Source: Dokdonia pacifica
Lineage (GTDB): Bacteria; Bacteroidota; Bacteroidia; Flavobacteriales; Flavobacteriaceae
NCBI RefSeq assembly: GCF_900188275.1
Contig: NZ_FZNY01000001.1
Location: 1,550,001-1,614,000 of the forward strand
Direction: 5' to 3'
Length of the DNA stretch: 64,000 bases
Below the pieces are notes generated by a model that was not told the origin of the DNA, searched no databases, and was given only the letters and a program-made list of their open reading frames with translations. Of the stretch, positions 4,910 to 32,218 are shown in pieces. The first letter of the stretch is position 1, and each line of letters begins with the position of its first letter. The translations under genes and the position numbers were made by a program.

Positions 4910-4923
4910 AGTAAGAAGAAGTT

Positions 4924-15809: not shown

Positions 15810-17252
15810 TTAAAACAACAACGGTACAATCCAATAAGCAATCGCAAAGAGTAATCCTACAGAAATTAAATTTAGTACAATCCCGATACGTGCCATTTGA
15901 CTTACTCGTACATGACCACTAGCAAAAACAATGGCATTAGGAGGTGTTGCCATAGGAAGCATAAAGGCACAACTTGAAGCTAAGGTCACAGGAATAACCA
16001 TTTGTAAAATAGGAACATCCATACCAAGAGCAATTCCAACAACCAGAGGAATGAGTATGGTAACCAAGGCAACATTACTCATCAATTCTGTCATAAATAA
16101 CATTAAAAAGATCAGTACAGCAGTAACGACCCACATACTCCAGTCGGTTTGACCAGAAATATAATCACCTATCATTGCAATAAATCCAGCATCTTTTAGA
16201 CCAGATGCTAGGGCAAGACCACCACCAAATAAAATTAGAATTCCCCAAGGTAATCGAGAGGTGTCTTTCCAATCTAAAGGGAATTCCCCTTTTTTTAGAT
16301 CTAAAGGAATAATAAACATGGCAAGCGCTGCAATGACACTTATAGTGGTATCGGTAAGTGTGATATTGGGTAATAGCGTGTTGAGGTAACTACGCAACAT
16401 CCATGCAATGGCAGTACATAAGAAAATGATTAATACAATCTTTTCTCCACGACTCATTTTCCCAAGCTTATTGAGTTCTGTTTGAATAATAGCACCCGAA
16501 CCACCTATATTCCCAAGTCTGTTAGGAAAGAAAATACGCGTGATACAGAAATACGTAATGGTTAACATCAAAATAGCAAAAGGAACGCCCATTTTCATCC
16601 ACTGAAAAAAGCCTATATCAATATTGTAACTATCATTTAAAAAAGCAAGCATCACCGAGTTAGGAGGTGTCCCAATTAAGGTAGACATTCCTCCAATATT
16701 TGCAGCAAAAGCAATTCCTAACATAATAGAAAGTGCAAAATTCTTATCGTTTTTAGTAAAACCATCAGCATCATCCATGAGTAATTGAATCACAGAAACT
16801 GCAATAGGAAGCATGACCACCGTACTGGCAGTATTAGAAATCCACATGCTCATTAGGGCTGTGGCAATCATAAACCCTAAGACAATTCCGTTGGCCTTGG
16901 TGCCAGTAATCTTAAGAATAGAAAGCGCAATGCGTTTATGTAATTGTACTTTTTCTAAGGCGAGAGCAATCACAAAACCTCCAAAAAATAAATACACAAT
17001 AGGATTTGCATAGTTGCTTGCAACACTTTTAATATCACCTATTCCTAATAAGGGAAATAAAGCAAGAGGGATTAGCGCCGTTACAGAAATAGAAACAGCC
17101 TCGGTGATCCACCATACAATCATCCAAGCGGCAATAGCTATGACCCGATCTATCGCGGGGTCTATAATATCAAAGGGTATTACTAAAATTAGAATACACA
17201 ATAAAGGCCCCGATAAAAACCCTATTTTTTTAGAAATTGGAAATGTGTTCAT
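15810..17252 (-). CDS. DASS (SLC13) family sodium-dicarboxylate symporter
   Basis: The 480-residue protein has about 11-12 membrane segments and the two hallmark hairpin motifs of DASS carriers: SNTASTVVMLPI (first SNT) and IGTPPNSVM, with the second half reading MSNVALVTI and MATPPNAI. It imports di- or tricarboxylates such as succinate or malate, or sulfate in distant relatives, using Na+. It is the last gene of the minus-strand run, 56 bp after the Pycsar-effector-like gene, so it may supply the substrate for the Rieske operon or be a separate unit. Confidence 0.9.
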   Translation of the reverse strand: MNTFPISKKIGFLSGPLLCILILVIPFDIIDPAIDRVIAIAAWMIVWWITEAVSISVTALIPLALFPLLGIGDIKSVASNYANPIVYLFFGGFVIALALEKVQLHKRIALSILKITGTKANGIVLGFMIATALMSMWISNTASTVVMLPIAVSVIQLLMDDADGFTKNDKNFALSIMLGIAFAANIGGMSTLIGTPPNSVMLAFLNDSYNIDIGFFQWMKMGVPFAILMLTITYFCITRIFFPNRLGNIGGSGAIIQTELNKLGKMSRGEKIVLIIFLCTAIAWMLRSYLNTLLPNITLTDTTISVIAALAMFIIPLDLKKGEFPLDWKDTSRLPWGILILFGGGLALASGLKDAGFIAMIGDYISGQTDWSMWVVTAVLIFLMLFMTELMSNVALVTILIPLVVGIALGMDVPILQMVIPVTLASSCAFMLPMATPPNAIVFASGHVRVSQMARIGIVLNLISVGLLFAIAYWIVPLLF

Positions 17253-17308
17253 TGGGATTAAAGCTACGGAAAAAGATTCCGCTTGTCAACTATTCTATAC
17301 AACAGTTC

Positions 17309-17944
17309 TTATCCAAAATAGCCTCCAAAAAGTAAATGACATAATAGAAAGGCAATTACAGAAAGAATAATTCCTATTAGGAAGATCGTAAAAGAAGATC
17401 GTAAGAGTTTAAATTTTCTATTGATGGTTTTTCCTAAGTAATACGTGTCTTTGGCAATCGTCTTATAGAGCTCGTCACCTTGATTCATTAAATCCGAAAT
17501 CTGATTGACATATGCTTCTTCTTCCATATCATGGAAGTTACCATAAAACATAAGGTTATTCGTGCTTCTACTTCCGTGTTTTTTTTCTGGTCGTGTTGCA
17601 ATGACAGCATATCCTATCGATATAAGATTGGTCATCAAAATTAAGATAGCTGGATAAATCAAATGTGGATCTTTATCTAATTGGTCTAATACAGTTCCTA
17701 AAACAATAGATAAAATAAGCGCATTGATAGAGATCAAAATGTTTGATTTCCGATCAATCATAGCATTCAACGTATATTGATTTTTTGATAGTAATCTAAA
17801 TAATGTTTCGACCCCTTTTTCAGGTCGAGGTTCAATTTTAGAGAGCTTCTTCTTAAGAGATTTTAGTTCGTCTTTATTGATATTTAGATCTGACATTAAG
17901 ATTTTGTCTTTCTCTTTTTCAATTTCTTTTTTTGATGCTTCCAT
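17309..17944 (-). CDS. Pycsar-effector-type membrane domain protein (PycTM-like)
   Basis: The 211-residue protein has a charged N-terminus (about 40 residues) and then FRLLSKNQYTLNAMIDRKSNIL leading into a first membrane segment, a second near residues 97-117 and a third near 187-207. The motif N-x(3-5)-L-x-x-M-x-D-R-K-x-N-I-L-x-S-x-N is the signature I associate with the Pycsar effector transmembrane family (DUF5706). In Pycsar defence such proteins open the membrane when a cyclic pyrimidine nucleotide is made. No nucleotide cyclase lies nearby, and it sits 4 bp after an outer-membrane protein gene within a long operon, so a non-defence role is likely. Confidence 0.65.
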   Translation of the reverse strand: MEASKKEIEKEKDKILMSDLNINKDELKSLKKKLSKIEPRPEKGVETLFRLLSKNQYTLNAMIDRKSNILISINALILSIVLGTVLDQLDKDPHLIYPAILILMTNLISIGYAVIATRPEKKHGSRSTNNLMFYGNFHDMEEEAYVNQISDLMNQGDELYKTIAKDTYYLGKTINRKFKLLRSSFTIFLIGIILSVIAFLLCHLLFGGYFG

Positions 17945-17948
17945 AAGA

Positions 17949-18830
17949 CTATAGCTTAAATCGAATACCTGTTTTTATATATAGATTATTATCTTCAGAT
18001 ATTTCTGCAAGTGTATTTCTAGATCTATCTCTAAATTCTACCGAGTTACTCAGGATGTAACTACTATTGATATAATACTCAATATGATCGGTAAATTTAT
18101 ATTCATAGCGAAGTCCTCCTACAACGAGTTGTTGTCTAAATCTTCGCGCAATTTCTTGATTTTCTCCTACTTCAATACCGCGTTGTAAATTAGCTCTAAA
18201 CCCATCTAGACGTGCTACTAATTTAAATCTGTGCTTTGAAGAAGCATGGTATTGTAAGTTTATTTTAGGTACTCCTACATTATAAGACCACTTAGGATGG
18301 AACTTGCGATAATAACTTATAAAAGGGAGTATAGGAAACCCTCCTTTTCCAGAAACAGAAACACCTAAGATAAGTCGGTATGGGATATCATTGTCTTTTT
18401 TATCTTTTATAAACACGGCATCTCCAGAAAGAATAGCATCTTCAAAAGAAAGATTACGTGCTTTTAAATTAGAACTAAATCCAGGTTGAATTCTTGCACC
18501 AAAACGCCAATCTTCATTCAATTTGAATGTGTACCCAATATTGAGATCAAACAATTGAAATTCATCAATTTCTCGAGGGTCAAAACTCACTAGAGATTCA
18601 TCTACATTATAATCGATATAACTATAATCTAATCCAACAAACAAATAGGTGTCTTCTTTAAGCTCTATAGGAAAATTAACGAGTGCTCTAAATCTATTAA
18701 AAGAAGAACCATTGTCACTCCCTTCAGGAAGCCCTATATATTCTATTCGAGCAAGATCAGAGAGTTGCGCATATGTAAAACTACTGATGAGTAGAAAGAT
18801 AAAAGATGCATTTTTAAACTGTTTCGGCAT
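17949..18830 (-). CDS. Outer-membrane protein of unknown function
   Basis: A signal peptide (FIFLLISSFTYAQ) is followed by about 270 residues of alternating polar/hydrophobic strands ending in an aromatic-free KTGIRFKL terminus, consistent with a beta-barrel. DWRFGARIQPGF and KWSYNVGVPKI suggest the DUF6268-like barrel family, from memory only. It lies 6 bp after the antiporter gene and 4 bp before the PycTM-like gene. It may let small ions or organic acids through the outer membrane. Confidence 0.65.
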   Translation of the reverse strand: MPKQFKNASFIFLLISSFTYAQLSDLARIEYIGLPEGSDNGSSFNRFRALVNFPIELKEDTYLFVGLDYSYIDYNVDESLVSFDPREIDEFQLFDLNIGYTFKLNEDWRFGARIQPGFSSNLKARNLSFEDAILSGDAVFIKDKKDNDIPYRLILGVSVSGKGGFPILPFISYYRKFHPKWSYNVGVPKINLQYHASSKHRFKLVARLDGFRANLQRGIEVGENQEIARRFRQQLVVGGLRYEYKFTDHIEYYINSSYILSNSVEFRDRSRNTLAEISEDNNLYIKTGIRFKL

Positions 18831-18836
18831 AGGGTA

Positions 18837-20078
18837 TTATTTGTATAGTTTTTTTGCAAGAGTTCCAATACTCAATCCTTGACCAATAATAGAGAATAAA
18901 ACAACTACATAGGTGATGTATACAATTAATTCACTAGATAAAGACTCATGAAGGCTTAATGCAAGTGCAATTGAAATGCCACCTCGTAAACCACCCCATG
19001 TTAAAATAGCTATTGTCTTTATCGGTTTTTCTTCTTCGTGTTTTAATAAAGAATACGGGACAAATACAGAAATAAATCTCGATAATAATACGATAATAAT
19101 TGTAATAATACCAAGGATTAAATAATCTATATTAAATGCTAACAAATGAATAGCTAGTCCTATCAAAACAAACAAAATCCCATTAAAGACATCATCCAGA
19201 ATTTCCCAAAACTCATTAAGAGACATCTGTAATTTGTTTTTATTTTCATTGATGTGTACTTTATTTCCAATAAATAATCCTGCTACCACCATCGCTAATG
19301 GTCCTGAGACATGAATCATAGAAGCAATCGTATATCCTCCCATTACCACCGCAAGACTAATCATAACGGCGAGATTAGAATTATCTTTCAGACTCTTTAT
19401 AAGCTGTAAACCTAAAAAGCCAATGAGTAGTCCAAATAAAAGACCTCCTACAGCTTCTTCTAGAAATAAAGTGCCTATTTCTGCTCCAATTTCAGTTTGA
19501 CTATGCTCGCCTGTTGCTGTAGCAATTAATAAAATTCCAGAAAATACAACCACTCCAATACCATCATTAAATAATGATTCACCTTCTATTTTGATCCCTA
19601 AGCTTTCTGCAATATTTGCCTTTTTTAAGATAGCCATCACTGCAATAGGATCTGTAGGAGATATTAAAGCTCCAAATAATAATGCATGAATAAATGGAAG
19701 CTCTAATCCTATTAACATAGCAACCCCAAAAACAAGCCCTCCAACAATAAACGTAGAGATAAGGACACCAATAGTTGCAAATAAGAGTACTGATTTTTTT
19801 TGCTCAGCAAGTGCGCCAAAATCAACATGTAAAGCCCCAGCAAATAGCATAAAACTTAAAATCCCATCTAGCAGTAGTGTTTTGAAATCTGCATTGACAA
19901 TAATATCACAGAAAAACTTATAAAAAGCAGGAGCAATAGATTCACTTATAGTGATAATAATTACTAAACCTAAACTCAATAGTAATAACCCTATAGTAGA
20001 GGGAAGCTTTATCCATTTACTGTTGATGTAATTAAATAAAACGGCAATGGTAAAGATGATACTAAATGATTCGAACAT
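18837..20078 (-). CDS. CPA1-family Na+/H+ antiporter
   Basis: About 12 membrane segments and the CPA1 signatures [27 protein letters not shown] (the ND ion-binding pair) and [16 protein letters not shown] identify a Na+/H+ exchanger of the NhaP/SLC9 type. I place the start at ATG 20078, giving 413 residues, because the upstream in-frame extension (to 20126) merely translates the palindrome at 20102-20123. It is embedded between the Cys/His-motif protein gene and the outer-membrane protein gene, so sodium or pH balance appears tied to the redox operon. Confidence 0.9.
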
Positions 20079-20101
20079 GGCGTTGCTGTTTTTGTGCCGT
20101 A

Positions 20102-20123
20102 GTACGCTTTCGCGAAAGCGTAC
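20102..20123. repeat. Palindrome copy (5' of the antiporter gene, 22 bp perfect)
   Basis: GTAC-extended core between the stop at 20130 and the likely antiporter start at 20078, inside the operon. In the mRNA it would form a hairpin in the short intercistronic leader. Confidence 0.88.
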
Positions 20124-20129
20124 CAAGCA

Positions 20130-20927
20130 TTAATATATTTTTGAAGGTAAATCGAGATCTTGTATATCTTCTGTTTTAATACGCAATTGATACCAATCTT
20201 GTATCTTAACTACATTTCCTGTGAGTATAGATGGCTTGCCTATATAAGGTAATATTTGCTCATTTATAGGATTACCTTCCGTATCTGTGAGTAAGTAATA
20301 TTCAGCAATATTGTTTTTGTCTGTAGTTGCTAATACAGGTGGAATTCCTCCTGAAATACATAAGGTAGCACAACTTCTATGAATTTTACCTTTACCAGGT
20401 TTCATTACGCCAAAGTAGCATTTAGGATCAATAATCTCTCCCTTTAATTCCATTCCTGAAACTAGAGGTTCTGTTTTTGGAAGTCGACTTGGATTTGCTT
20501 TTTCAATCAGTGAGATTTTTTCATCACTTGTAATTTGAATAAGTGTCTTCCCATTGTAGTAGATGAGGTTTCCTTCTATACGTAATACACTCCCTGATAA
20601 TGGACCTGCTTCATTTCTTATTTTTTGTAAAAATGGATTGGCGCTTGATTTTCCAAAGCCTAATAATAGGATGTTTTTGTATACATTTTCGTCAGTTTGA
20701 ACACGTAACATAGGATACGGCATCTCATGATAAACCCCTGTTATTTTTGTATTTGTTGTTAGCTCAAATGTGCTGTTTTTGAACGTGTTTTGAGTAAGGG
20801 CAAATAGGAGAGCACCACCTACTAATAATAGTATTCCAAAGAGTACAAATGATTTGATTCCTTTTTTTGTTTTGGGAGATACCGTATCTAGATACCCAAT
20901 GTAAAAATCGTCTTCTTCTTCTTTCAT
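20130..20927 (-). CDS. Membrane-anchored protein with a conserved-looking Cys/His motif
   Basis: One membrane segment (about residues 26-46) anchors a 265-residue protein whose C-terminal part is probably periplasmic. The striking feature is DPKCYFGVMKPGKGKIHR followed by SCATLCISGGIPPV: Cys170, His183, Cys186 and Cys190 could bind a metal or heme-like cofactor, or form disulfides. I have seen comparable DxKCxxGVM-x-HRxCAxxCI-x-GGIPP patterns in hypothetical proteins but cannot name the family. It ends 3 bp before the antiporter leader and begins 10 bp after the heme-Rieske gene, so it is likely a partner in that electron-transfer chain. Confidence 0.72.
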   Translation of the reverse strand: MKEEEDDFYIGYLDTVSPKTKKGIKSFVLFGILLLVGGALLFALTQNTFKNSTFELTTNTKITGVYHEMPYPMLRVQTDENVYKNILLLGFGKSSANPFLQKIRNEAGPLSGSVLRIEGNLIYYNGKTLIQITSDEKISLIEKANPSRLPKTEPLVSGMELKGEIIDPKCYFGVMKPGKGKIHRSCATLCISGGIPPVLATTDKNNIAEYYLLTDTEGNPINEQILPYIGKPSILTGNVVKIQDWYQLRIKTEDIQDLDLPSKIY

Positions 20928-20937
20928 AACTTTTTGA

Positions 20938-21969
20938 TTAAAATGTAACGGGTTCTATTTCGGTTCCTTCTGCCATAGCTTCAGGAAGTATATAGATGCG
21001 ATTATTTTTATTTTTAATACGGTAGGTAGCTACTTTTTCTGTAAATGGTGGTGGCGATTGTCCATTATGAGGTAAGTATTGGTATCCATGCCAAGGGCAC
21101 GTAATACAACCATCTACAATTTTACCTTCACCTAAAGGGCCTCCTTGGTGTTTACAAACATTTGAAATAGCTGAGAGCTTGTTGTCATATTTGAAAATAG
21201 CAACACGCTCATTTCCTACTACAAAAATCTTTGCTCTGTCTTCAGAGATTTCATCAATTTCACATACATATTCCCAGCCTTCTTCTTTCTCTGTAGTTTG
21301 AATACTATCTGTTTTAGATTCTTTAAAAGCAGTGGTGATATGTAAAGAGGTAATCGTTAAAAATCCGATTCCTAAAAATGCAATTACCATAATAGATGGT
21401 TGTTGCTGAAAGGCTCCTAAGAATACGTGAAGTATCACTAATATATACGCTACGTATACAAGCATATGTAATCGTTTCCATGTTTTTGGAGAGAGGTTTT
21501 TTAACCAGAAATCATGACTGGTAGCGGCCATTAGAAATAAAATAACCAATGCAAAAAAGCCTAATACTTGAAAAGGAAAATTAGCTAAAGAGGTATATTC
21601 CATATTAGACGTAAACAATGCATAAATGGGGTTTACATTTCCTAAGGCATGAAATTGAAATAACGAGAACCCACCATGAATAAGTGCCGCAATAAACATG
21701 CTCACTCCTAAATGTCTTCTATTATATAAGATGGGTAATAATCTAGGGTTTAATCTAGCTAAAGGACCAATACTTAAGATAATATGTAATAAGACAATAG
21801 CTAGCGTTCCAAAAGCTCTAATAATGAGTGTTTCCGGACTAGTTTCTCCATTAGTGAGAATAGTAATTCCAATAAAACTTACGAGATATAACAGCATCCC
21901 TATGGCAATCCATTTGTCGTATGTTTTCTTATGCTTATTCCAAAGCACAGGTTGATAATTTACTCCCAT
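20938..21969 (-). CDS. Ferric-reductase-like heme b membrane protein fused to a Rieske domain
   Basis: Residues 1-210 contain six membrane segments with histidines on helices (His62, His98, His168, His181) as in the ferric reductase / MsrQ-like heme b domain. Residues about 235-330 form a Rieske [2Fe-2S] domain with ligands Cys272-x-His274 (VCKHQGGPLG) and Cys291-x-x-His294 (CPWHGYQY). The fusion implies electron passage between heme in the membrane and the iron-sulfur cluster. Its ATG overlaps the end of the preceding gene by 10 bases. It is the most likely membrane terminus of the redox pathway in this operon. Confidence 0.88.
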   Translation of the reverse strand: MGVNYQPVLWNKHKKTYDKWIAIGMLLYLVSFIGITILTNGETSPETLIIRAFGTLAIVLLHIILSIGPLARLNPRLLPILYNRRHLGVSMFIAALIHGGFSLFQFHALGNVNPIYALFTSNMEYTSLANFPFQVLGFFALVILFLMAATSHDFWLKNLSPKTWKRLHMLVYVAYILVILHVFLGAFQQQPSIMVIAFLGIGFLTITSLHITTAFKESKTDSIQTTEKEEGWEYVCEIDEISEDRAKIFVVGNERVAIFKYDNKLSAISNVCKHQGGPLGEGKIVDGCITCPWHGYQYLPHNGQSPPPFTEKVATYRIKNKNNRIYILPEAMAEGTEIEPVTF

Positions 21970-22379
21970 GATAGATCGATGTTATAGATGACACTCTTTT
22001 TTATTCCGTCGTATAGCTGGATCTTTTTCACTGTTTTTTCAATATCAAAAGTATACAAGCCTTTGTTATCTATGCTTCCTATAAATGTGCTTCGTTCTTG
22101 ATTTTCATCGACGGTATATACACTTGTAGCGGCACTTTTTAATGGTTTTTTTATAACAATTTGTAACTTATTGACAGTTGCTAGTTCTTCTATACTTGCA
22201 TATAACTGCGCGTTATTTTCAACAGGAACTGCTCCCTTCTGTGTTTTGGAGGTAATGATCTCATTATCAATTCCTAATGGTTCTTTTACACTGTTTATTG
22301 ATAATACAATAAGTACGGCGCCTAGGAGACCTAAAACCATCCACATTATCTTGTGGGTTTTTCGTAATCCAGAAGTCAT
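21960..22379 (-). CDS. Small membrane-anchored periplasmic protein
   Basis: The start is set at ATG 22379 because it forms an ATGA overlap with the stop of the upstream gene; a longer frame reaches 22469 but would overlap that gene heavily. The 139-residue product has one membrane segment near its N-terminus (KIMWMVLGLLGAVLIVLSI) and a probably periplasmic beta-rich domain of about 100 residues. No family is recognised. The 3' end overlaps the heme-Rieske gene by 10 bases, suggesting an accessory subunit. Confidence 0.75.
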   Translation of the reverse strand: MTSGLRKTHKIMWMVLGLLGAVLIVLSINSVKEPLGIDNEIITSKTQKGAVPVENNAQLYASIEELATVNKLQIVIKKPLKSAATSVYTVDENQERSTFIGSIDNKGLYTFDIEKTVKKIQLYDGIKKSVIYNIDLSWE

Positions 22380-22594
22380 AGATTTGTTTTTGAAGGTTTT
22401 AGTAATCTTGATAATAGGAGAGGCCATAAGCCTATAGCTCCAGGTACCAGTAAAAGCCGCACGGTCCATTTACTGTCTTTGATAAGCGCATCTAGCTGTG
22501 CAGCGCCTCGTATAAAAAAATAAATTCCAAATACGAGGCCTATGGCTAGATAGATCAGAATGATGGTTGGAATAATCTGAACTAGTATATCCAT
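22376..22594 (-). CDS. Two-helix small membrane protein
   Basis: A 72-residue protein with two hydrophobic helices (residues about 6-28 and 44-64) separated by a short charged loop (DALIKDSKW). It starts 4 bp after the Rieske-TPP enzyme gene and its stop overlaps the next start as ATGA. Its size and position suggest a small subunit of a membrane complex with the heme-Rieske protein. Confidence 0.78.
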   Translation of the reverse strand: MDILVQIIPTIILIYLAIGLVFGIYFFIRGAAQLDALIKDSKWTVRLLLVPGAIGLWPLLLSRLLKPSKTNL

Positions 22595-22598
22595 ATGT

Positions 22599-24548
22599 TT
22601 ATATTAAAGTTGCATCTGTTATGATTTCTAATAAAGCGGGGCCATTATGCGCTCTTAGTTTTTCTAAAGCAGGGATGAGCTCTTCTCTTTTTGTGACTCT
22701 AATACCTAGAGCGCCACAGTTTTCTGCAAATTTTGAAAAATTTGCATTATGCAAAGAAGTTTTCCAAACATCTAATTCTGCTGCTTTTTGTTCTTTAGAA
22801 ATTTTTCCAATTTCTGAATTATTAAGTAACACATGTTTGATGTTCATGTTATACTTAACAAGGGTCATCATTTCTCCTAGATATTGTCCAAATCCTCCAT
22901 CTCCAGATACAGACCAGATAGGTCTTTCTTTCCCTTGTGCTGCCCAAGCGCCCATAGCTGCGGGTAAAGAGAATCCAATAGATCCTAAATACCCAGACAT
23001 CAAGACCGATTGGTTTTTTGGCTCAAAGTAGCGTCCAAAAGAATAGGTGTTATTTCCTACATCTACTGCAATGACTGCATTGTCTGGAACTACTTGATTC
23101 ATGGCTTCAAATACAGCTATAGAGCTTAACCCGATTGCACTTTCGTCTTCCAGTCTACTTTGTTTTTCTTCTTTCCAAATGGCCCAACGCTCAGCAATTT
23201 CAGGGCGTCTGTCTATGGTATTTAATTTTCCTTTAGTTTCTTCTTCAATAATGGTAAGTGTTTCAGATATTTCTCCCCATAGTGCAGCATCTACTTTATG
23301 GAATTTACTCAAGGCTGTAGGATCGTAATCTACTTGAATAATTGGTTTTTTAGGAGTAATTCCTGTGTGATTTGAGAACGAAGCGCCAAATACTATTAAT
23401 AAATCACTTTCATTCATAAACCAAGAAGCGATAGGAGTACCACTTCTTCCTAGAACCCCACACCCTAATTCATGAGAATCGGCAATAAGACCTTTTCCTT
23501 TGAATGTAGTAATAACGGGGCAGTTTAACGTTTTCGCGAAAGCGGTAATAGCTTCCATATGAAAACGAGCTCCATGACCTACAATAATAGCAGGCTTTTC
23601 TGAAGCAGCTAGCATATCTACTGCCTTTGCTACCATTTGCCTTGGCGGCGAAATATTCATAGGTGTGATTCTATTCTCAGGAGTTTGAGCTTCTTCACCT
23701 TCTGTTTTTGGCATAAATGCCACTTCATCTGGGAAGGTGATATGTGATACATCTCTGTTGAGTAATGCACTTTTTATAGCAAGGCTCATTAACTCACTAT
23801 GTTTAGAATTTTGCTGTACGCTATGGTTAAAATGTGCTACCGTTTGAAATGCACCTACAAGATCTACTTCCTGAAATGCTCCAGTACCTAATACTTGTGT
23901 ATTTACTTGTCCAGACAGTGCTAATAGGGGAGCGCGGTCTACTTTTGCATCCCACATTCCTGTAAACATATTGGTAGATCCAGGTCCTGCAATTCCAAAA
24001 CAAACAGCAGGTTTGCCCATTAATTTCCCATAAGCAGAGGCCGCAAAAGCGGCAGCTCCTTCATGGCGTATACCATAAAATTGGAACCTCCCTTTTTCTT
24101 CTTGTCGTCTCATGGCATCGGCGACGGCAAGATTAGAATGGCCTACCATTCCAAAACCAGTATCTACACCCCAATTTACCATGGTCTCTATCATGACATC
24201 AGAGATAGTCTCTTCATGTGTATCTTCTTCTTCAACAGCAACAAGAATGGCATCCCCTTCTTCTTTAACTTCAAATGTTTTCACCCCATCATCATAGCCT
24301 CCAGGAGGTAATCCTGTACATGGGTGAAAATCCCAACCATGCCAAGGACAGCGTAGCATTCCATTTTCAATAGACCCTTCTCCAAGCGGACCCCCTTGAT
24401 GTGGGCATTTGTTATCCAATGCAGAAAACTTCCCGTCATAATGCGTCAAACAAATACCTTGATGACCAGCAGTTACTGTTTGAACACGCCCTTCTGGTAA
24501 TACTTTTTTGTTTTCGAGAACTTTATACCATTTTTTAGTTGTTGCCAT
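22599..24548 (-). CDS. Rieske-thiamine diphosphate enzyme fusion (pyruvate-oxidase-like)
   Basis: Residues 1-105 form a Rieske [2Fe-2S] domain with Cys48-x-His50 (KCPHQGGPLG) and Cys67-x-x-His70 (CPWHGWDF). Residues about 112-649 form a full three-domain TPP enzyme of the acetolactate synthase / pyruvate oxidase class: activating Glu163 in RHEGAAAFAASAYG, a middle domain, and the TPP-Mg motif starting GDGGFG at 549 with NN at 576-577. Such enzymes decarboxylate 2-oxo acids; the fused cluster could take electrons from the TPP intermediate, making acid or acyl phosphate. The substrate is not deducible. It is flanked by 4- and 5-bp gaps. Confidence 0.88.
   Translation of the reverse strand: MATTKKWYKVLENKKVLPEGRVQTVTAGHQGICLTHYDGKFSALDNKCPHQGGPLGEGSIENGMLRCPWHGWDFHPCTGLPPGGYDDGVKTFEVKEEGDAILVAVEEEDTHEETISDVMIETMVNWGVDTGFGMVGHSNLAVADAMRRQEEKGRFQFYGIRHEGAAAFAASAYGKLMGKPAVCFGIAGPGSTNMFTGMWDAKVDRAPLLALSGQVNTQVLGTGAFQEVDLVGAFQTVAHFNHSVQQNSKHSELMSLAIKSALLNRDVSHITFPDEVAFMPKTEGEEAQTPENRITPMNISPPRQMVAKAVDMLAASEKPAIIVGHGARFHMEAITAFAKTLNCPVITTFKGKGLIADSHELGCGVLGRSGTPIASWFMNESDLLIVFGASFSNHTGITPKKPIIQVDYDPTALSKFHKVDAALWGEISETLTIIEEETKGKLNTIDRRPEIAERWAIWKEEKQSRLEDESAIGLSSIAVFEAMNQVVPDNAVIAVDVGNNTYSFGRYFEPKNQSVLMSGYLGSIGFSLPAAMGAWAAQGKERPIWSVSGDGGFGQYLGEMMTLVKYNMNIKHVLLNNSEIGKISKEQKAAELDVWKTSLHNANFSKFAENCGALGIRVTKREELIPALEKLRAHNGPALLEIITDATLI
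23529..23544. repeat. Palindrome copy with one mismatch (in Rieske-TPP gene)
   Basis: CGTTTTCGCGAAAGCG; one base differs from the perfect core. Read as AFAKT in the minus-strand gene. Confidence 0.7.
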
Positions 24549-24553
24549 GCGTT

Positions 24554-24946: not shown

Positions 24947-24996
24947 ATGATTTTTGTTTTAATATGCTGTTAAGCAATCTATAAAGCGATACAGTA

Positions 24997-25755
24997 CTAC
25001 TTTTTAAACTGATGTATAGTTTCTTGAAAGAACTGGACAGTTTCAGATTCTACTAGGTTTGTAGCAGGGAGAATAGCTCCGGTAAAACCTTGATCTACCC
25101 ATTTTCCTAAACTCAAATCACTAGAAGAAGAAGGAAGTATTGCTTTGCCATCTTTATAGCCGCTGATATAAAAATAATGTTCGTCAGAAAGTGTATCAGG
25201 AATTGCCATTCCTATTCCAATAGAAATACCAGTGTCATTTAATGGTGCATAGGCTCCCGTATCAAAATGGTGAGGCCATATACGTATAGGCGAATCCAGA
25301 TGATGTGTTTCTACAATACTTTCTAGGGTATACTCTGCAAGAATCCTTAAGTTACATAGATGCTCTAATGCAGCAGCATCAGTTAATTTATACTGATAGG
25401 CATCATTAATTGTATATGGTAATTCATAATGAAACTCATATACATATTCCTTTCCAAGATGTTTTTGAGAACATTCTTGTAACCATTGTAATATCTCATT
25501 ATGTGTTTTCCCGTCAAGGGAAAGTGAAATCATGCCATTTTTAGAGATCCATTCTAAAGAAAACCGTCTATAGTTTAATGCTAACCTGTCTCCAGAAGGA
25601 GACAAATCATAGGTTTCCATTTTCATGGTATCTGTATCAAAGCCTACATTGGTATGACTATCGTCTGCTTTCTTTTCTAGAAAGCTCATGTTTGCAGCAG
25701 CTAAATATTGAGATGCTAGGTGTAATTGATCTTTCATTGATTTAAATTCCGGCAT
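24997..25755 (-). CDS. Soluble protein of unknown function with WPHHFD motif
   Basis: A 252-residue soluble protein with no signal peptide. The region RIWPHHFDTGAYAPL near residue 160 provides a His-His pair plus Asp that could bind a metal; a WPHHFD string also occurs in DUF5996-type proteins, although I cannot confirm homology. Its start overlaps the end of the Rieske-GltB gene by 14 bases, so it is translationally linked to that fusion and may act on its product or assist its cofactor loading. Confidence 0.7.
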   Translation of the reverse strand: MPEFKSMKDQLHLASQYLAAANMSFLEKKADDSHTNVGFDTDTMKMETYDLSPSGDRLALNYRRFSLEWISKNGMISLSLDGKTHNEILQWLQECSQKHLGKEYVYEFHYELPYTINDAYQYKLTDAAALEHLCNLRILAEYTLESIVETHHLDSPIRIWPHHFDTGAYAPLNDTGISIGIGMAIPDTLSDEHYFYISGYKDGKAILPSSSSDLSLGKWVDQGFTGAILPATNLVESETVQFFQETIHQFKK

Positions 25756-27349
25756 AGTTAATTCCTGTTAGTTTGTGCATATCTCTGTTAAATGTGGATA
25801 GATCATCATGATTAAACTTACTGATATCATCATATCCACATGCTCTCGCTACTACTTTAATCAAGTTGTTTGTAGCATCAAAATAGTTGTGTAATTGCTT
25901 AGCAGAGCTATCAATAATTAAACGACTACGTAATGATTCTTTTTGGGTAGCAATTCCTACAGGACAGTTGTTACTACCACAAGCACGCATTCCTAAGCAT
26001 CCTATGGCTTGCAATGCCGAGTTAGATACGGCAATAGCATCGGCTCCTAACATTAACGCTTTCGCGAAATCTTCTGCAACACGCAATCCTCCTGTAATGA
26101 TAAGCGTCACATCTGTCGCACCTACTTTATCTAAATATTTTCTAGCTCTTGCCAAAGCAGGAATTGTTGGAACATTGATATGATCTCTTAAGATAGTAGG
26201 AGCAGACCCTGTACCGCCACCGCGACCATCAAGTATAATATAGTCTACACCTACATCTAGTGCAAACTGAATGTCTTTTTCTATATGACTAGCAGCGAGT
26301 TTAAATCCAATGGGGATTCCGCCAGTGCGTTCTCTTACTTGGGTGGCAAAGGCTTTAAAATCTTCTACCCCATGAAAATCTGGAAAGGTTGCTGGAGAAA
26401 TAGCTGTTTCGCCTTCATTAAGACCACGTACTTCTGCAATTTCTTTACTTACTTTGGCGCCAGGAAGATGACCTCCTGTTCCTGTTTTGGCTCCTTGGCC
26501 ACCTTTAAAATGAAAGGCTTGAACGTTATCAAGCTTGTCCCATGAAAACCCAAATTTCGCGGAAGCGAGTTCATAAAAATATTTAGAATTATTGGCTTGC
26601 TCTTCAGGAAGCATTCCTCCTTCTCCAGAACAGATTCCTGTTCCTGCTAACTCGGCTCCTTTAGATAAAGCAATTTTTGCTTCACGAGATAGTGCTCCAA
26701 AACTCATATCACTTACAAACAATGGAATGTCTAAATGGAGTGGTTTTTTTGCTTTTTTACCGATCACTACTTTGGTCGCTACATCATCTTCATCGAGTAA
26801 AGGGCGTGATGCTAATTGTGCAGGTAAAAACTGAATATCATTCCATTTAGGAAGAGTATTTCTATCTACTCCCATAGATGCAGAAAATCCGTGATGCCCA
26901 ATATTTTTCAATCCGTTTTGAGCCAGTTCTTTAATATAGGTGGTATAAGGTTCTGTCTCTTCAGGATGCGTATCTGCATAGGCTCCTAGGTATTGATCGC
27001 GATTAAAAGGCTGTGGGTGATTTACTAAGTATGCATCTATTTCAAACTCGTCTACAAGTAAATCGTCTCCATCAATTTTTGTAGAAAATTTATGTAAAAC
27101 CTCTTTATTGTTATATTCCGAAACGCCAGAATCTACACGGTAATCCCAGCCATGAACTCCACATATAAGATTATGGCCATCTACATGACCGTCTGACATT
27201 AAGGCGCCTCTATGAAGACAGCGACCGTATAATACCGAAATATCATCATCAAATTTTACAATTACTAAATCAAGTCCGTTTACGAGTGCATGCTCAGGTT
27301 TTTTGTTTTCTAATTGAGAAATTTTTGCAATAGAAATTGGTTTTTTCAT
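25742..27349 (-). CDS. Rieske domain fused to FMN glutamate-synthase domain
   Basis: Residues 1-105 are a Rieske domain with ligands Cys44-x-His46 (RCLHRGAL) and Cys63-x-x-His66 (CGVHGWDY). Residues about 140-520 are the FMN-binding TIM barrel of glutamate synthase large subunit, with GGQGAKTGTGGHLP, GGGTGSAP and the 3Fe-4S cysteines at 451, 457 and 462 (spacing C-x5-C-x4-C, ending CPVGIATQ). The N-terminal glutaminase domain and its Cys1 are absent, as in stand-alone GltB-like enzymes, so ammonia or an amine rather than glutamine would be the nitrogen donor, if it is an amination at all. Very unusual architecture; a key gene of the operon. Confidence 0.9.
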   Translation of the reverse strand: MKKPISIAKISQLENKKPEHALVNGLDLVIVKFDDDISVLYGRCLHRGALMSDGHVDGHNLICGVHGWDYRVDSGVSEYNNKEVLHKFSTKIDGDDLLVDEFEIDAYLVNHPQPFNRDQYLGAYADTHPEETEPYTTYIKELAQNGLKNIGHHGFSASMGVDRNTLPKWNDIQFLPAQLASRPLLDEDDVATKVVIGKKAKKPLHLDIPLFVSDMSFGALSREAKIALSKGAELAGTGICSGEGGMLPEEQANNSKYFYELASAKFGFSWDKLDNVQAFHFKGGQGAKTGTGGHLPGAKVSKEIAEVRGLNEGETAISPATFPDFHGVEDFKAFATQVRERTGGIPIGFKLAASHIEKDIQFALDVGVDYIILDGRGGGTGSAPTILRDHINVPTIPALARARKYLDKVGATDVTLIITGGLRVAEDFAKALMLGADAIAVSNSALQAIGCLGMRACGSNNCPVGIATQKESLRSRLIIDSSAKQLHNYFDATNNLIKVVARACGYDDISKFNHDDLSTFNRDMHKLTGINYAGI

Positions 27350-27383
27350 AGGTTTTAGTACTGTTGTTAGTTAAAATATATGT

Positions 27384-30300
27384 TTAAAATGCAAACCCTA
27401 GTACGAATACAATTCGCCCTCCGTCATTACTTCCGTAATATCCTACGTTTGCTGTAAATGTGTCAAGACCACTAATCCAGAAAGATCCTCCAGCGCTCGT
27501 GTTTATGGTACTAGATTCATCAATGATAGCAGCAGCTTCATTGCCTTCCCATACTCTTCCGTAATCAAAACCACCCGTAATTCCATAATTTAAAGGGATA
27601 AAACTACTTTTGAATTTTCCTAGTTTTAAACGTAGGTCTGTGTTTTGATAAAAAGCGTATTTACCAATAAAACGCTCATTTCTAAAACCTCTTAAACTAT
27701 GATTACCTCCTAAAGTAGCTCCGTGGAAGAATTCAAAGTTATCGCCTAGTATGGCTTCTCCTCCTATTTTTGTAGCAAATACGAGATTGCCGCTTTTAGA
27801 AATTTTATAGTCAAAGGCAAAATGGGATTCTACATATCCGAATTTATTGTCGCTATTACCTCCGTCAATATTGGTTTTATATCCTGCTGTGATTTCTGTA
27901 TCTAATCCATAAGTAGGGAAGGCAGCGTTATCCTTGTTTTTAAAACCATAAGAGACTTCTGCTCCTGCATAAGTTTGGTTTTCAAAAGTGAGTGCATTTA
28001 TTCCTGCTAGATCATCTGTAGCAATAAAACGATCTGCGGTATTTGCTACTTCAAAAGATTCTATGTGAGGTTTGATTTCAAAATATCCGCCATTATCTCC
28101 TCTTCTTATGAGGGATATGGCTCCTCTTAATTGACGTATACGTACACGGTTAAAATCTAGTTCTACTTCATTTCTGTCATATTCTGTATCATTACCAAAT
28201 CCAAAGAAGTTCTGAGCAAAATTAGGGCTGTTGTATTTGAATTCAACACCGAAATTCCAATTATGAAATATGTTTGCAAATTCTCCACTATAGCTTACAT
28301 CATATCCTGAATTTCCAGAATAGTAAGATGCGGTTATAATGTGTTTTGAAGTGAATGGATTGCTTTGTAAACCGTGAGTGGTAAATGTATTTGTAAACCC
28401 TATTCTAAGTCCATCATCTGGGTTTGCTCCAATAATAGGTAGTAACTGATTTACATTTTCTTTTCTTTTTTTGTAATCATAGTTATTGATTTCATAGTCG
28501 TCTACTAGCCATTTTTTTGATCGTTTATTTACGATGGTATTCTCTTTATTTTTATAATCGTAAATCTTTATCTTTTTTGTGTTTTTAAAATCATAGGTGT
28601 CATTTTTCTTACCACCAATTACTTTAATTTTAATAAGATGATCTCCTTCTCCTGTAACATTAAAAGTATCTTTTCCTTCAAGGCCATAAATCCAGATCTC
28701 TTTTGTTTCGGATGCGTTAAATGTACGTTCAAAAAGACCATTGTCTTTACGCATAATGGCTACGTGTGTTTGTCCATTAGGAAGTCTTTTTATATTAAAA
28801 ACATCACTTTTTTGAGTTCCAATTAATACAGCATGCTTGTTTACATAATCAAAATAAGATTTTGCAATGGTTAAGAGATTGCCTCGTCTTCCTTTTAATT
28901 TTGATTTAATTTCTTCTATGGTTTCCCCCTTCATTTCTTCAGGAAGATTTTCAAAGGCTTTTGCTATGATTTCATCTGTAACGTTATCTTGAATATATTT
29001 GGCTTCTTTTTCCCAAGCAGCCCAATCTGATTTATTGATAAATGATTCGTCTAAAGGGTAGGGTTCAAAGCTAAACCATCTTGGACTTTTTAGTTCATCG
29101 TCAAAAGATTGCATCATTCGTAAAGCTGGTACTGCTACACGTAAAAATCCAAAAATACTTCCATCAAATACAGAGAAAGCCTGATCTCTATCTCTTGGAA
29201 TAGGTTTGTATGTTTTTTTACCATCTTCTTTAAATACAGCCCATCGCCATTGATCTTCGTGACGATCCCAATCGCCAATAAGCATATCAAAAAGACGTGC
29301 TCTGATATAAGAAGATTCATCTACAGCAGATTTACCATTTTTATGAATTTCTTGAAGTACGTCTGCGGTACTTACAATATCTTCAGGATATCCAAAGCTT
29401 TTAGCATCTTTATGTCCAGATTCTACACGTTCTTCTAGTAAATATAATTCGTCACCATATTCATCATTGTATTCTCCTAAGGCTTCTTGTTTAGGAATGT
29501 AATATAAATTGGGATTGGTATGATATACCTTTGCAGCATCTGCCAAATCTCCTATTGTAGTAGCAGTATAAGGATGTGCTGCGGTATAAAAATCTAACAC
29601 AAAACGATCTGCAAAACTGCCTTCAAGCTCTTCTTCTACGTAGGTTTCTTTAAAAGCAGTTGCTTGTAAGAACTTGGTGGCACTTTTACGTAACGCACGC
29701 ATCACATATTGCTTACCATCTTTGTCTTCTAGTCGTAGTGATTTAGATTGGTGTCCGCCGCCACGTCTTACAGGAGTAAGCCCCCCTAATAGAGTGTCTA
29801 TAAATGCAACGGGAGCTTCTACTTCTTTGCTGTAAAATTCGCGATAGCGTTTTCCCCAAAGCCCTTTGTAGAGTTTGCTTTTCTCAGTTTCTTCACTAGC
29901 ATATACAGCAGCCTTTTTAGTTTCTGGGTAGGTGTTTTTAGGTTCAAAAGAAATGGAAGATGTCTGTTGTGTATTTTCGAAAAGTGTTGTTGTAAATAAC
30001 ACGCTATTTTCATTTTTGAAATGTACAGAAAGGCTACCATCCGTATGGATATCAAGACGTGCGTATCCTTTTTCGCTTGAAGCGAAATCGCCACTATTTT
30101 TAATTACCTTTTTAACATTTTGAGTGTCTCCAGAAGCGCCGCTTATAATCTGTGGCACGCCAAAATCATTGATATATTGCAGGTTTTTATCACTTCCAGA
30201 AACAAATACAATCTTATCGTTTTCTTGAGCGATAGTGAGTAATCTATTGCGTAAACTCCTGTATTGCGTATGCTGAAAATCTTCTTGAGAAAAACCACCT

Positions 30301-30932
30301 GTTCTTGCAAAAAATCCAGTTTTAGATAATGAGAGCATTGGGTGATGAATGGCAATGATCTTTGTTTTTGCTTGCGCCTTTTTCAAAATGCTTTCAAACT
30401 CTAAAAAGAAATCATTTCTGTTTTTGATATCACAATCTTCATTGAGATACGTTTGTTTATCCCAATCTTCTAGATACCATTGAGAATCTATAGTGATAAG
30501 GATTGCATTATCAGTAAGGTTTGTCTTTTTGATAGGACATCCTTTATCTGGGTAAAACTTGGCATCGCTATTTTTTTGGATATACTTTTCAAAAGCTTTT
30601 ACACCTTTATAACCATTAAATTCCCATTCATTATGCCCAGATGTAAAGATGACATTCTTTTTTAATGAAGAGACAATATTGAGTTGATCATCTACTACAG
30701 ATATTGCAGTATCATCAAATCCATTTTCAGGAGTTGTATTCCCCAATAAGAGCAGCTTAGAGTTTTCAGAAGCGTCTTCTACAATGGTGCGTAGTGTATT
30801 TATTCCTTCTGTTGTATTTGTATTTCCGGTAATGTATACAGAGATTTCTTTTTCTTGTCCATATGTATACGATGTTATGCAAAGTATAAGAACAAAGAAG
30901 GCTTTGTAAATATGGTTTTTAGAATTAATCAT
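27384..30932 (-). CDS. Three-part outer-membrane protein: phosphoesterase-like, kinase-like, beta-barrel
   Basis: A signal peptide (to about Gln26) is followed by a calcineurin-phosphoesterase-like domain (30-300) in which metal-binding motifs have decayed (ITGNTN for GDxGN, GHNEWEF for GNHE, SGSDKN for GHDH; HHPML at 196 is kept). Residues about 390-780 hold an atypical kinase-like region: DxxGKQYVMRALRK, LIGDWDRHEDQ at 551-561 and PRDRDQAF at 579-586, like CotH/Fam20-type kinases. Residues about 830-1182 form a BamA/TamA-like 16-strand barrel (GGNHSLRGFRNERF, terminal GFAF). It is probably exported through or displayed at the outer membrane. It starts the redox operon, 34 bp upstream of the Rieske-GltB gene. 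Confidence 0.72.
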   Translation of the reverse strand: MINSKNHIYKAFFVLILCITSYTYGQEKEISVYITGNTNTTEGINTLRTIVEDASENSKLLLLGNTTPENGFDDTAISVVDDQLNIVSSLKKNVIFTSGHNEWEFNGYKGVKAFEKYIQKNSDAKFYPDKGCPIKKTNLTDNAILITIDSQWYLEDWDKQTYLNEDCDIKNRNDFFLEFESILKKAQAKTKIIAIHHPMLSLSKTGFFARTGGFSQEDFQHTQYRSLRNRLLTIAQENDKIVFVSGSDKNLQYINDFGVPQIISGASGDTQNVKKVIKNSGDFASSEKGYARLDIHTDGSLSVHFKNENSVLFTTTLFENTQQTSSISFEPKNTYPETKKAAVYASEETEKSKLYKGLWGKRYREFYSKEVEAPVAFIDTLLGGLTPVRRGGGHQSKSLRLEDKDGKQYVMRALRKSATKFLQATAFKETYVEEELEGSFADRFVLDFYTAAHPYTATTIGDLADAAKVYHTNPNLYYIPKQEALGEYNDEYGDELYLLEERVESGHKDAKSFGYPEDIVSTADVLQEIHKNGKSAVDESSYIRARLFDMLIGDWDRHEDQWRWAVFKEDGKKTYKPIPRDRDQAFSVFDGSIFGFLRVAVPALRMMQSFDDELKSPRWFSFEPYPLDESFINKSDWAAWEKEAKYIQDNVTDEIIAKAFENLPEEMKGETIEEIKSKLKGRRGNLLTIAKSYFDYVNKHAVLIGTQKSDVFNIKRLPNGQTHVAIMRKDNGLFERTFNASETKEIWIYGLEGKDTFNVTGEGDHLIKIKVIGGKKNDTYDFKNTKKIKIYDYKNKENTIVNKRSKKWLVDDYEINNYDYKKRKENVNQLLPIIGANPDDGLRIGFTNTFTTHGLQSNPFTSKHIITASYYSGNSGYDVSYSGEFANIFHNWNFGVEFKYNSPNFAQNFFGFGNDTEYDRNEVELDFNRVRIRQLRGAISLIRRGDNGGYFEIKPHIESFEVANTADRFIATDDLAGINALTFENQTYAGAEVSYGFKNKDNAAFPTYGLDTEITAGYKTNIDGGNSDNKFGYVESHFAFDYKISKSGNLVFATKIGGEAILGDNFEFFHGATLGGNHSLRGFRNERFIGKYAFYQNTDLRLKLGKFKSSFIPLNYGITGGFDYGRVWEGNEAAAIIDESSTINTSAGGSFWISGLDTFTANVGYYGSNDGGRIVFVLGFAF

Positions 30933-31178
30933 TTGCGAGTTTATGTTTGATAGTGGTTAATTTTTAAAATAGTTCTCCTTGCAGAAGCATAGTAGGAATA
31001 CCTCTGAAAATGAAATTTATAATAATATGTTATTAGTTATTGATGGTTAAGGGGAAACGAATCATCAATAAAATTTATCCTTAATATATGATTCTACATC
31101 TAGGGCATTTTCAGCCAATAATGGTACTTTATAATTTGATCCTATTAAGATACTATAATTTGTTTTGATGCTTCTTTT
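30933..31178. promoter_or_regulatory. Leader region of the large operon, with inverted repeat
   Basis: The 246-bp gap upstream of the operon contains the perfect inverted repeat TTATTGATG (31037-31045) and CATCAATAA (31063-31071), 9-bp arms with a 17-bp spacer. It could be an operator for the nearby Crp/Fnr protein or a hairpin. No exact TAnnTTTG element is evident for the minus strand, so the start of transcription may lie further upstream. Confidence 0.4.
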
Positions 31179-31436
31179 TTAGTTGTTGTATACTAATAAT
31201 AGCTTCTTCGGCGTATGTACTTTATAGAGGAGATTGTGTCTAATAAAATAAAATAGAAAACTACTGATAGTTAATAGAGTGACAATTTGTAAGTAATTTA
31301 AAGATACAAATTTGGTAAATTCAGAATTGTCAGAATTTCCTAAAATATATAATAAGTACTGTGTTGGGTATTTGCTTGAGAGCACAAGAATAAATCCAAT
31401 AAGGCATAAGTAGCCTAGTGTTTTATGTAGCTTCAT
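31179..31436 (-). CDS. Small membrane protein of unknown function
   Basis: An 85-residue protein with two hydrophobic helices (about residues 9-30 and 48-68) and a basic tail (HTPKKLLLVYNN). It lies between the Crp/Fnr regulator gene and the operon, all on the minus strand. I do not recognise it. Confidence 0.55.
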   Translation of the reverse strand: MKLHKTLGYLCLIGFILVLSSKYPTQYLLYILGNSDNSEFTKFVSLNYLQIVTLLTISSFLFYFIRHNLLYKVHTPKKLLLVYNN

Positions 31437-31555
31437 GATTTGATTAGTTGTTGTTGTTGCATCTGTCGAAGTGTTCTAAAATTCCTTTCACAAAAAATTT
31501 AAAATATTCAAAAAACATCATGATACATAGTGCTATTTAGATGTTTATGAATCAT

Positions 31556-32218
31556 TTATTTCTTAAGTTTTATAATAAATTTTGTGTCATATTGAATATC
31601 TCCATCCTTGCGCATTGAGCTTAATACATTACTTACCGTCTGTCGCGATGTATTTGTAAGTCCAGCAATATCTTTGTGTGTAAGTAGATTTTTTGCGACT
31701 AGATTACCTTCTTCATTCGGTGTTCCAAACTCACTTACATAATCTGCTATAAATTCTTTAATTCTCACATGACTATCCTTATATAAAAGATCGTGTAATT
31801 TCCGCTCTAAGCGCTTTATACGTGTGCCATATATTTTTAAAACACCATTTTTAAGTGATTTGTGTTTTTGCATTAAAGCCTCCATTTGCCCTGATTCAAT
31901 ATAACATATCACGCAATCTTCAAGTGCATATGCAACTTCTTCAGAAGCCATTTCTTCATCATATAGTGAGAGTTCTCCAAATATATTACCACGTTTTGCA
32001 ACATATTTTACTGTATGGGTATTCTTATCTACAATTTTTACGACTCCTTTTTTTAGAAAGAAAATACATTTTTTATCGACGCTTTGAAGATTAATAACAG
32101 AGCCTTTATCTATATTATCCATTTCCAGAATTTCACAAATGGACATCATCGTGACAATGCCTAATTTTCTAAAGAGATTAAATTCTTCTAAAAACCAATA
32201 CTTAGTAAGTGTTTTCAA
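31556..32218 (-). CDS. Crp/Fnr-family transcriptional regulator
   Basis: The 220-residue protein has a cyclic-nucleotide-binding-type beta-roll (about 20-135; KGSVINLQSVDKKCIFFLKKGVVKI, GELSLYDEE), a long dimer helix, and a C-terminal winged helix (LTHKDIAGLTNTSRQTVSNVLSSMRKDG at about 180-207). The CAP cAMP-binding Arg/Ser pair is not obvious, so the effector is unknown; there is no Cys cluster as in Fnr. The TTG start keeps the family-typical YWFLEEFNLFRKLG start. A TAnnTTTG element lies at 32242-32249. It is the first gene of the minus-strand cluster and a candidate regulator of it. Confidence 0.85.
   Translation of the reverse strand: MKTLTKYWFLEEFNLFRKLGIVTMMSICEILEMDNIDKGSVINLQSVDKKCIFFLKKGVVKIVDKNTHTVKYVAKRGNIFGELSLYDEEMASEEVAYALEDCVICYIESGQMEALMQKHKSLKNGVLKIYGTRIKRLERKLHDLLYKDSHVRIKEFIADYVSEFGTPNEEGNLVAKNLLTHKDIAGLTNTSRQTVSNVLSSMRKDGDIQYDTKFIIKLKK

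Follow-up and report, generated by a model that had tools for sequence, protein, structure and literature searches.

Introduction

Rieske [2Fe-2S] domains are known from the bc1 complexes and from oxygenases and their ferredoxins. Here we have analysed a stretch of 64,000 nucleotides of the Dokdonia pacifica genome (contig NZ_FZNY01000001.1, positions 1,550,001 to 1,614,000 of the forward strand; hereafter the window, numbered from its first letter), in which a Rieske domain is attached, as a connector, to each of three unrelated enzymes encoded in a single run of minus-strand genes. The three fusion proteins, which we call RieskeTPP, RieskeGlt and RieskeFRD, co-occur in more than one phylum, and one of them is also present in haloarchaea. 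Given that their genes lie side by side here and are found together in other microbes as well, it is probable that they form a single, undescribed system that passes electrons. No description of the three-fusion set was found in the open-licence literature, in agreement with the initial annotation of the window, whose author knew of no named system with this gene set.

The thiamine pyrophosphate (TPP) part of RieskeTPP aligns with the Escherichia coli pyruvate oxidase PoxB and with the Lactobacillus plantarum pyruvate oxidase, and retains Glu163, the TPP motif and the FQ pair, but the protein differs from these enzymes in having an N-terminal Rieske domain and a Lys for a Phe in the pocket, and in ending without the last ~40 residues of PoxB. 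RieskeGlt shares the PF01645 domain and the three cluster cysteines with the large chain of glutamate synthase, but carries an N-terminal Rieske domain in place of the glutaminase half. RieskeFRD has the heme-type membrane domain of MsrQ/YedZ and of the ferric reductase domain (FRD) superfamily. An FRD plus Rieske architecture (M4) is already listed in a figure legend of PMC3591440, so that this architecture is not new in itself. The text of that paper also places the heme histidines of transmembrane helix 5 (TM5) 13 residues apart, which is the spacing of His168 and His181 in RieskeFRD, and describes such domain extensions on FRD as generally not persistent. In contrast, the Rieske extension of RieskeFRD persists in Bacteroidota, Acidobacteriota, cyanobacteria and Rhizobium and, unlike MsrQ, RieskeFRD has as its partner not MsrP but a membrane protein with a Cys/His motif, named CHmem here.

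Organization of the locus

The minus-strand run 15810-30932 consists of 13 tightly packed genes, and the gene of a Crp/Fnr-type regulator located upstream (31556-32218) brings the number to 14, which is the packing that the initial annotation had described and that the listings of open reading frames (ORFs) confirm. The listing holds 12 consecutive minus-strand ORFs from 30932 to 15810; the 13th gene (22376-22594, 72 aa), named c11, and a possible gene of 85 aa had been overlooked in the first reading of the window. Read from 30932 to 15810, the gaps are 34, -14, 50, 5, 4, -4, -10, 10, 3, 6, 4 and 56 bp, i.e. with three overlaps, when the c11 gene is included and the start of the adjacent gene sm169 is placed at 22379. 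The regulator gene is separated from the first gene of the run, which encodes a protein of 1182 aa, by 623 bp containing one additional ORF (85 aa, 31179-31436), and a single transcript spanning this interval is not implied. The genes that carry the argument are the following:

25742 to 27349, minus strand: RieskeGlt (535 aa), N-terminal Rieske domain (PF00355) and FMN-binding domain of the glutamate synthase type (PF01645, 296 bits)
22599 to 24548, minus strand: RieskeTPP (649 aa), N-terminal PF00355 and the domains TPP_enzyme_N/M/C, pyruvate oxidase-like
22376 to 22594, minus strand: c11 (72 aa), conserved small membrane protein
21960 to 22379, minus strand: sm169, single-TM protein upstream of RieskeFRD
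20938 to 21969, minus strand: RieskeFRD (343 aa), MsrQ/ferric reductase-type membrane domain of the heme type (PF01794, 49.8 bits, cut-off 28) and C-terminal PF00355
20130 to 20927, minus strand: CHmem (265 aa), one TM helix and two OB-fold-like domains in the predicted structure

According to Pfam, the whole genome contains four matches to the Rieske domain PF00355, three of which are in this run, and these score above the cut-off of 20.3 bits (RieskeFRD 59.9, RieskeTPP 59.3 and RieskeGlt 45.6 bits). The ligands CxH...CxxH are present in all aligned sequences of RieskeTPP (84), RieskeGlt (47) and RieskeFRD (28), the window copies being counted; it should be noted that the conservation in RieskeTPP is partly built in, since the locus scan used Rieske peptides as patterns. 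Pfam and the alignments thus bear out three Rieske fusions with intact ligands and with FMN glutamate-synthase, TPP and ferric reductase-like partners, as initially annotated.

The three fusions recur together

The co-occurrence of the fusions was determined in a sample of 198 Bacteroidota genomes that includes the window's own; the Fisher tests are uncorrected for kinship. RieskeFRD is present in eight genomes (long matches), and CHmem in 13 at E<=0.001, eight of the matches being long (E<=4e-18) and five being weaker ones limited to either the motif domain or the N-terminal part. The genomes with RieskeFRD and those with long CHmem are the identical eight (p 2e-14). RieskeGlt is found in 40 genomes at E<=1e-60, with the Rieske part spanned in 33, and all eight RieskeFRD genomes contain it in full length (p 3e-7). 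RieskeTPP (E<=1e-90) is limited to six genomes, four of which have RieskeFRD (p 2e-5) and five RieskeGlt (p 5e-4).

A complementary view was obtained from a genome scan with the RieskeTPP alignment, of which the best 80 loci were analysed (61-92% identity; more exist). RieskeGlt is encoded in 45 of these loci, RieskeFRD in 20 and CHmem in 20, and all three fusions in 17 loci from two phyla, including a contig of Pyrinomonadaceae (Acidobacteriota). These counts are lower bounds, many contigs being short, as exemplified by one locus (L077) in which RieskeGlt is cut at the contig edge; the number 17 reflects a non-overlapping assignment and becomes 18 if an overlapping match in L059 is counted. 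When the genomes of 40 of the 80 loci were checked as a whole, full-length RieskeFRD was present in 16 of the 39 genomes screened for it (three of the loci already had it), and RieskeGlt at E<=1e-100 in 27 of 40 genomes (23 spanning the Rieske part) and in 12 of 15 further ones. Together, the 198-genome table and the 80-locus counts rule out that the genes are chance neighbours, and show that the fusions, the Cys/His membrane protein, the small membrane proteins, the antiporter and the Crp-type regulator singled out in the initial annotation are a real recurrent set.

RieskeTPP is related to pyruvate oxidases

The top matches of RieskeTPP in the PDB are PoxB of E. coli (3eya/3ey9), with which residues 113-644 align, and the pyruvate oxidase of L. 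plantarum (1pox), with which residues 119-643 align. The protein has the fold of a TPP enzyme with the catalytic Glu and the GDG...NN motif: Glu163, D550, the FQ pair, Lys582, E586 and Q587 are kept in all 84 aligned sequences, and N577 in 81 of them. At what we take to be the FAD positions of PoxB, the glycines, one Phe and one Asp are retained in the alignment, and RieskeTPP may likewise bind FAD. Lys582 occupies a position that is Phe in both PoxB and the L. plantarum oxidase, presumably F465 and F479, respectively. RieskeTPP remains far under the cut-offs of the curated models (PRK08611, 392 of 742 bits; PRK09124 (PoxB), 294 of 792; SpxB, 301 of 638). The alignment comprises the window copy, 77 of the 80 loci (the ORF caller lost the gene in L106, L107 and L112) and six others; a 542-aa relative from Rhizobium without a Rieske domain was excluded by the length filter.

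Among the matches listed, the closest relative is that of an uncultured Dokdonia metagenome-assembled genome (MAG), with 92% identity. RieskeTPP is also encoded on haloarchaeal plasmids (56-58% identity) and on a Mycobacteroides plasmid (51%), and the next TPP enzymes follow at 35%.

RieskeGlt and the flavodoxin-like protein c19

As judged from its sequence, RieskeGlt has the FMN domain and the 3Fe-4S cysteines of glutamate synthase. Its cluster cysteines C451, C457 and C462 align with those of solved glutamate synthases, and the Rieske and cluster ligands are complete in the 47 aligned proteins, from which five shorter family members were excluded. Pfam detects no glutamine amidotransferase (glutaminase) domain in its 535 aa, and its score against the GltB model is 132 of 1047 bits. 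Eighteen of 41 RieskeGlt places were read out: 16 have intact Rieske ligands, one is a second copy that has lost them, and one is without the Rieske part. The second copy (L122:5114-6712, genome G182) has kept the FMN part.

Some lineages have an FMN protein of another kind, c19, which is flavodoxin-like, unrelated to RieskeGlt, and contains an FMN_red domain (31.1 bits, cut-off 24). It is encoded in nine of the 80 loci, and RieskeGlt is present beside it in none of these nine, versus 45 of the 71 other loci (p 3e-4). At the genome level, six of 40 genomes and three of a further 15 encode c19 orthologues (>500 bits); none of these nine has RieskeGlt, versus 39 of the 46 others (Fisher p 1.8e-6), or 35 of the 46 if only Rieske-spanning matches are counted (2.6e-5). 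The 55 loci behind the genome-level comparison were picked with the locus content known, especially the final 15 (three with c19 and 12 without, nearly all of the latter with RieskeGlt in the locus), and the 80-locus table is therefore the fairer one. Paralogues of c19 with 49-58% identity, which are found with and without RieskeGlt, were left out of these counts. The Mycobacteroides plasmid encodes a c19 homologue (E 5.5e-101) ~2 kb from RieskeTPP, on the opposite strand and with two annotated genes between them. RieskeGlt seems to be exchangeable for c19.

RieskeFRD, CHmem and the membrane module

RieskeFRD combines PF01794 with conserved histidines, as expected for the ferric reductase domain superfamily: His86, His98, His152, His168 and His181 are present in all 28 aligned sequences, which include the window copy and leave out a 623-aa form described below. 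The histidines were matched to the published heme ligands by spacing alone. Its best NCBIfam model for the membrane domain is the curated MsrQ, with a score under the cut-off (50.5 of 130 bits). The Rieske domains of RieskeFRD and RieskeTPP have a mean identity of 34%, versus 20-23% for either to that of RieskeGlt (samples of 26, 21 and 16 sequences). Consistent with this, the matches of RieskeFRD at E<=1e-15 in the 198 genomes are, beyond its own family, only the six RieskeTPP N-termini.

CHmem contains four residues, C170, H183, C186 and C190, that are invariant in 25 aligned sequences. Its structural model has a pLDDT of 86, with lower values around the Cys/His loop, and a Foldseek search gave a single hit at E<=0.001, to an SSB with an OB fold, besides weak hits to other OB folds. 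We infer that the domains are extracytoplasmic because of the charges flanking the TM helix, and because four further loci encode small, secreted-looking proteins with the same Cys-His-Cys-Cys motif (c40; HMM E 4e-21 to 4e-13):

L030:9119-9604, c40 protein, secreted as judged by eye
L031:9793-10200, c40 protein, likewise
L032:9125-9661, c40 protein, likewise
L033:10196-10627, c40 protein, likewise

No Rieske fusion is present within the fetched 20 kb around the c40 genes, and the members scanned have no Pfam name; c40 is a candidate family of extracytoplasmic metal-site proteins.

The module is completed by two small proteins. The c11 family was called in 15 loci, every one of which has RieskeFRD, and sm169 has relatives in 15 of the 80 loci; recognition of the c11 gene at 22376-22594 shifts the likely start of sm169 to 22379. 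RieskeFRD and CHmem also occur together on a Rhizobium plasmid, and in one MAG (L101) they are encoded as the single 623-aa ORF, possibly an assembly error because RieskeGlt is split in this genome.

A possible electron relay and its alternatives

We tentatively propose, as a reading that is quite possible rather than established, that the fusions are parts of a modular system built on Rieske domains that transfers electrons from the cytoplasm to the membrane. RieskeTPP would oxidatively decarboxylate a 2-oxo acid in the fashion of pyruvate oxidase, with the enzyme's own Rieske domain, rather than O2 or quinone, as the acceptor of the electrons from FAD. The next acceptor would be an FMN partner, often RieskeGlt (FMN, 3Fe-4S and Rieske) and in some lineages the flavodoxin-like protein. 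Where the membrane module formed by c11, sm169, RieskeFRD and CHmem is present, the Rieske domain of RieskeFRD, which is similar to that of RieskeTPP, would send electrons via heme b to the outside of the membrane, where the Cys/His centre of CHmem would receive them, and the antiporter encoded in the run may deal with the accompanying load of cations or protons. The pairing of RieskeFRD with CHmem, the likeness between the Rieske domains of RieskeTPP and RieskeFRD, and the mutual exclusion of RieskeGlt and c19 fit an electron relay that has one slot for an FMN protein. The relay is also favoured by the co-occurrence of the fusions, by the single ORF for RieskeFRD and CHmem in L101 and by the malic enzyme genes located near RieskeTPP in five of the 80 loci. 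RieskeTPP is taken as the donor because of its kinship with pyruvate oxidases, and an outward flow in the membrane part is assumed because of the habits of the FRD superfamily.

Several observations weigh against this relay. No part requires all the others, since RieskeGlt and RieskeTPP also occur without the other fusions: 24 of the 33 Bacteroidota genomes with full-length RieskeGlt have neither RieskeFRD nor RieskeTPP, and RieskeTPP has no other fusion nearby on the Mycobacteroides plasmid and in two of the three haloarchaeal stretches examined, L018 being the sole one with RieskeGlt nearby. The initial annotation held that its single-system reading would fail if the fusions were usually found separately, and this has in part proved to be the case; because RieskeGlt is common without the other two, the gene set is modular and not one fixed operon. 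The exclusion of RieskeGlt and c19 reflects few independent events: c19 changes five times on the RieskeTPP tree, and random pairings gave four independent pairs, which in most cases all oppose RieskeGlt and never go with it (sign test p 0.125), a test that is non-significant because there are only four pairs. The substrate of RieskeTPP need not be pyruvate, since all 84 sequences have Lys where the pocket of the oxidases has Phe. Finally, proteins of the flavodoxin and FMN-reductase type are also able to donate electrons, and this would suit a relay running in reverse.

This reverse wiring, in which an NAD(P)H/FMN protein (c19 or RieskeGlt) would be the source, and the Rieske domains would supply both a TPP carboligase or reductase and an outward membrane reductase for stress repair similar to MsrPQ, is in our opinion unlikely. 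The FMN_red domain of c19 and the sub-threshold resemblance of RieskeFRD to MsrQ are in line with it, and so are redox-stress genes among the neighbours of RieskeTPP, annotated as peroxiredoxin, MerA or DsrE in haloarchaea, and including an EgtD-type methyltransferase, FMN_red, DUF427 and a weak YHS match in bacteria. However, the closest solved and curated relatives of RieskeTPP belong to the pyruvate oxidases, enzymes that donate electrons, and Pfam found no molybdopterin (MsrP-type) domain in the 17 window proteins scanned.

The stress-type neighbours, and the fact that the modules occur singly, would also suit a third explanation with no joint pathway, according to which separate stress-induced oxidoreductases share a regulator and travel together on genomic islands. 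On a quick RieskeTPP tree, RieskeFRD and RieskeGlt each switch 17 times between presence and absence beside RieskeTPP, a number inflated by cut contigs, which would agree with such mobility. We regard this explanation, too, as improbable: every genome with RieskeFRD in the 198-genome sample also has RieskeGlt, c19 and RieskeGlt are mutually exclusive, and RieskeTPP and RieskeFRD share a Rieske type. The pathway initially annotated, in which the DASS-type transporter would import an organic acid that is then decarboxylated or aminated, is very improbable, since, although the transporter gene lies 56 bp downstream in the same direction and a gene for malic enzyme, a producer of pyruvate, is near RieskeTPP in five of the 80 loci (three of them Roseivirga; Pfam-verified in one), a single, distant DASS relative was found across these loci, which leaves the import step unsupported, and RieskeGlt is without the glutaminase half and seemingly exchangeable for a flavodoxin-like protein, which leaves amination without support.

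Returning to the outward relay, a more far-reaching version of it, which we consider doubtful at present, is that the set is an oxygen-compatible, undescribed and horizontally spread counterpart of the pyruvate:ferredoxin oxidoreductase chains, composed of a soluble Rieske-TPP 2-oxo-acid oxidase, an interchangeable FMN partner, a Rieske-heme transmembrane wire and, in CHmem, a new extracytoplasmic Cys3His redox or metal centre. If the wiring is true, it would connect central 2-oxo acids with the cell envelope by an aerobic route, the parts of which are now scattered in annotation as thiamine pyrophosphate-binding protein, glutamate synthase-related protein and hypothetical protein. Direct and testable predictions follow from the strict pairing of RieskeFRD with CHmem and from the exclusion of RieskeGlt and c19.

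Other genes of the run and its surroundings

The remaining genes, with the number of the 80 loci that contain a relative where this was counted, are as follows:

31556 to 32218, minus strand: Crp/Fnr-type regulator (PF00027, PF13545), 15 loci
31179 to 31436, minus strand: possible 85-aa membrane protein
27384 to 30932, minus strand: 1182-aa protein with weak metallophosphoesterase-type and outer-membrane-barrel (ShlB) signals, both under cut-off, 12 loci
24997 to 25755, minus strand: u252, DUF5996-related, accompanies RieskeGlt and RieskeTPP, 39 loci
24554 to 24946, minus strand: DUF2721-like small membrane protein (27.6 bits, just below the cut-off of 28.3), 27 loci
18837 to 20126, minus strand: CPA1-type cation/proton antiporter (PF00999, 206.7 bits), with an uncertain TTG start, 32 loci
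17949 to 18830, minus strand: DUF6268 protein (PF19783), two loci, guessed in the initial annotation to be of the outer-membrane type
17309 to 17944, minus strand: PycTM-family two-TM protein (PF18967, 89.1 bits; PADLOC PycTM, 68.7 bits), 10 loci
15810 to 17252, minus strand: DASS-type dicarboxylate/sulfate transporter (PF00939, 254 bits), last gene of the run

In relatives, the regulator gene is often located immediately upstream of that of RieskeGlt or of the 1182-aa protein. The 85-aa ORF may be a gene because a similar sequence is present in two of the fetched relatives, L041 and L050, and only in these (37-41% identity over 74-76 aa). PF19459 (DUF5996) is matched by eight of the 44 members of the u252 family (best E 1.2e-45), the window copy not being among them, and the model of u252 (pLDDT 95) has no fold match in the PDB at E<=0.001. 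The DUF6268 protein is a local gene, given that just two loci have relatives. The DASS transporter likewise looks like a local neighbour because the 80 loci, searched by similarity to the window copy and not by profile, contain one distant relative (L101, 42 bits). Proteins of the FG-GAP/ASPIC type with C-terminal sorting domains are encoded on each side of the region (14018-15772 and 34510-36258). Not being conserved neighbours, the DUF6268, DASS and FG-GAP proteins were set aside as members of the system.

The PycTM-family protein resembles the two-TM effectors of Pycsar and CBASS. Unlike in Pycsar, no cyclase domain was found among the 17 window proteins scanned, and PycTM lies beside an antiporter in a redox operon; a relative directly adjoins the antiporter gene in six of the 80 loci (L039, L040, L041, L045, L057 and L071). 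The PycTM family may have roles outside defence. A defence system was considered and rejected: PADLOC, run on 10 proteins, matched only PycTM and the cNMP part of the regulator.

At the thresholds used, the scan of the window detected no RNA families and no tRNAs. The exact flavobacterial-type promoter TTTG-N-TAnnTTTG is absent upstream of the run and occurs once in the window, inside a gene, versus 3.75 expected, and a scan for sigma-70-type promoters found 58 versus 72.7 expected, i.e. below chance. In the neighbourhoods of two relatives, a thioredoxin-reductase-like protein is fused to two glutaredoxin-like domains, as assigned by eye (L036:8196-9602 and L082:18330-19739). Elsewhere in the window, two neighbouring genes at 3812-6216 encode proteins of the beta-lactamase family PF00144, which are perhaps hydrolases.

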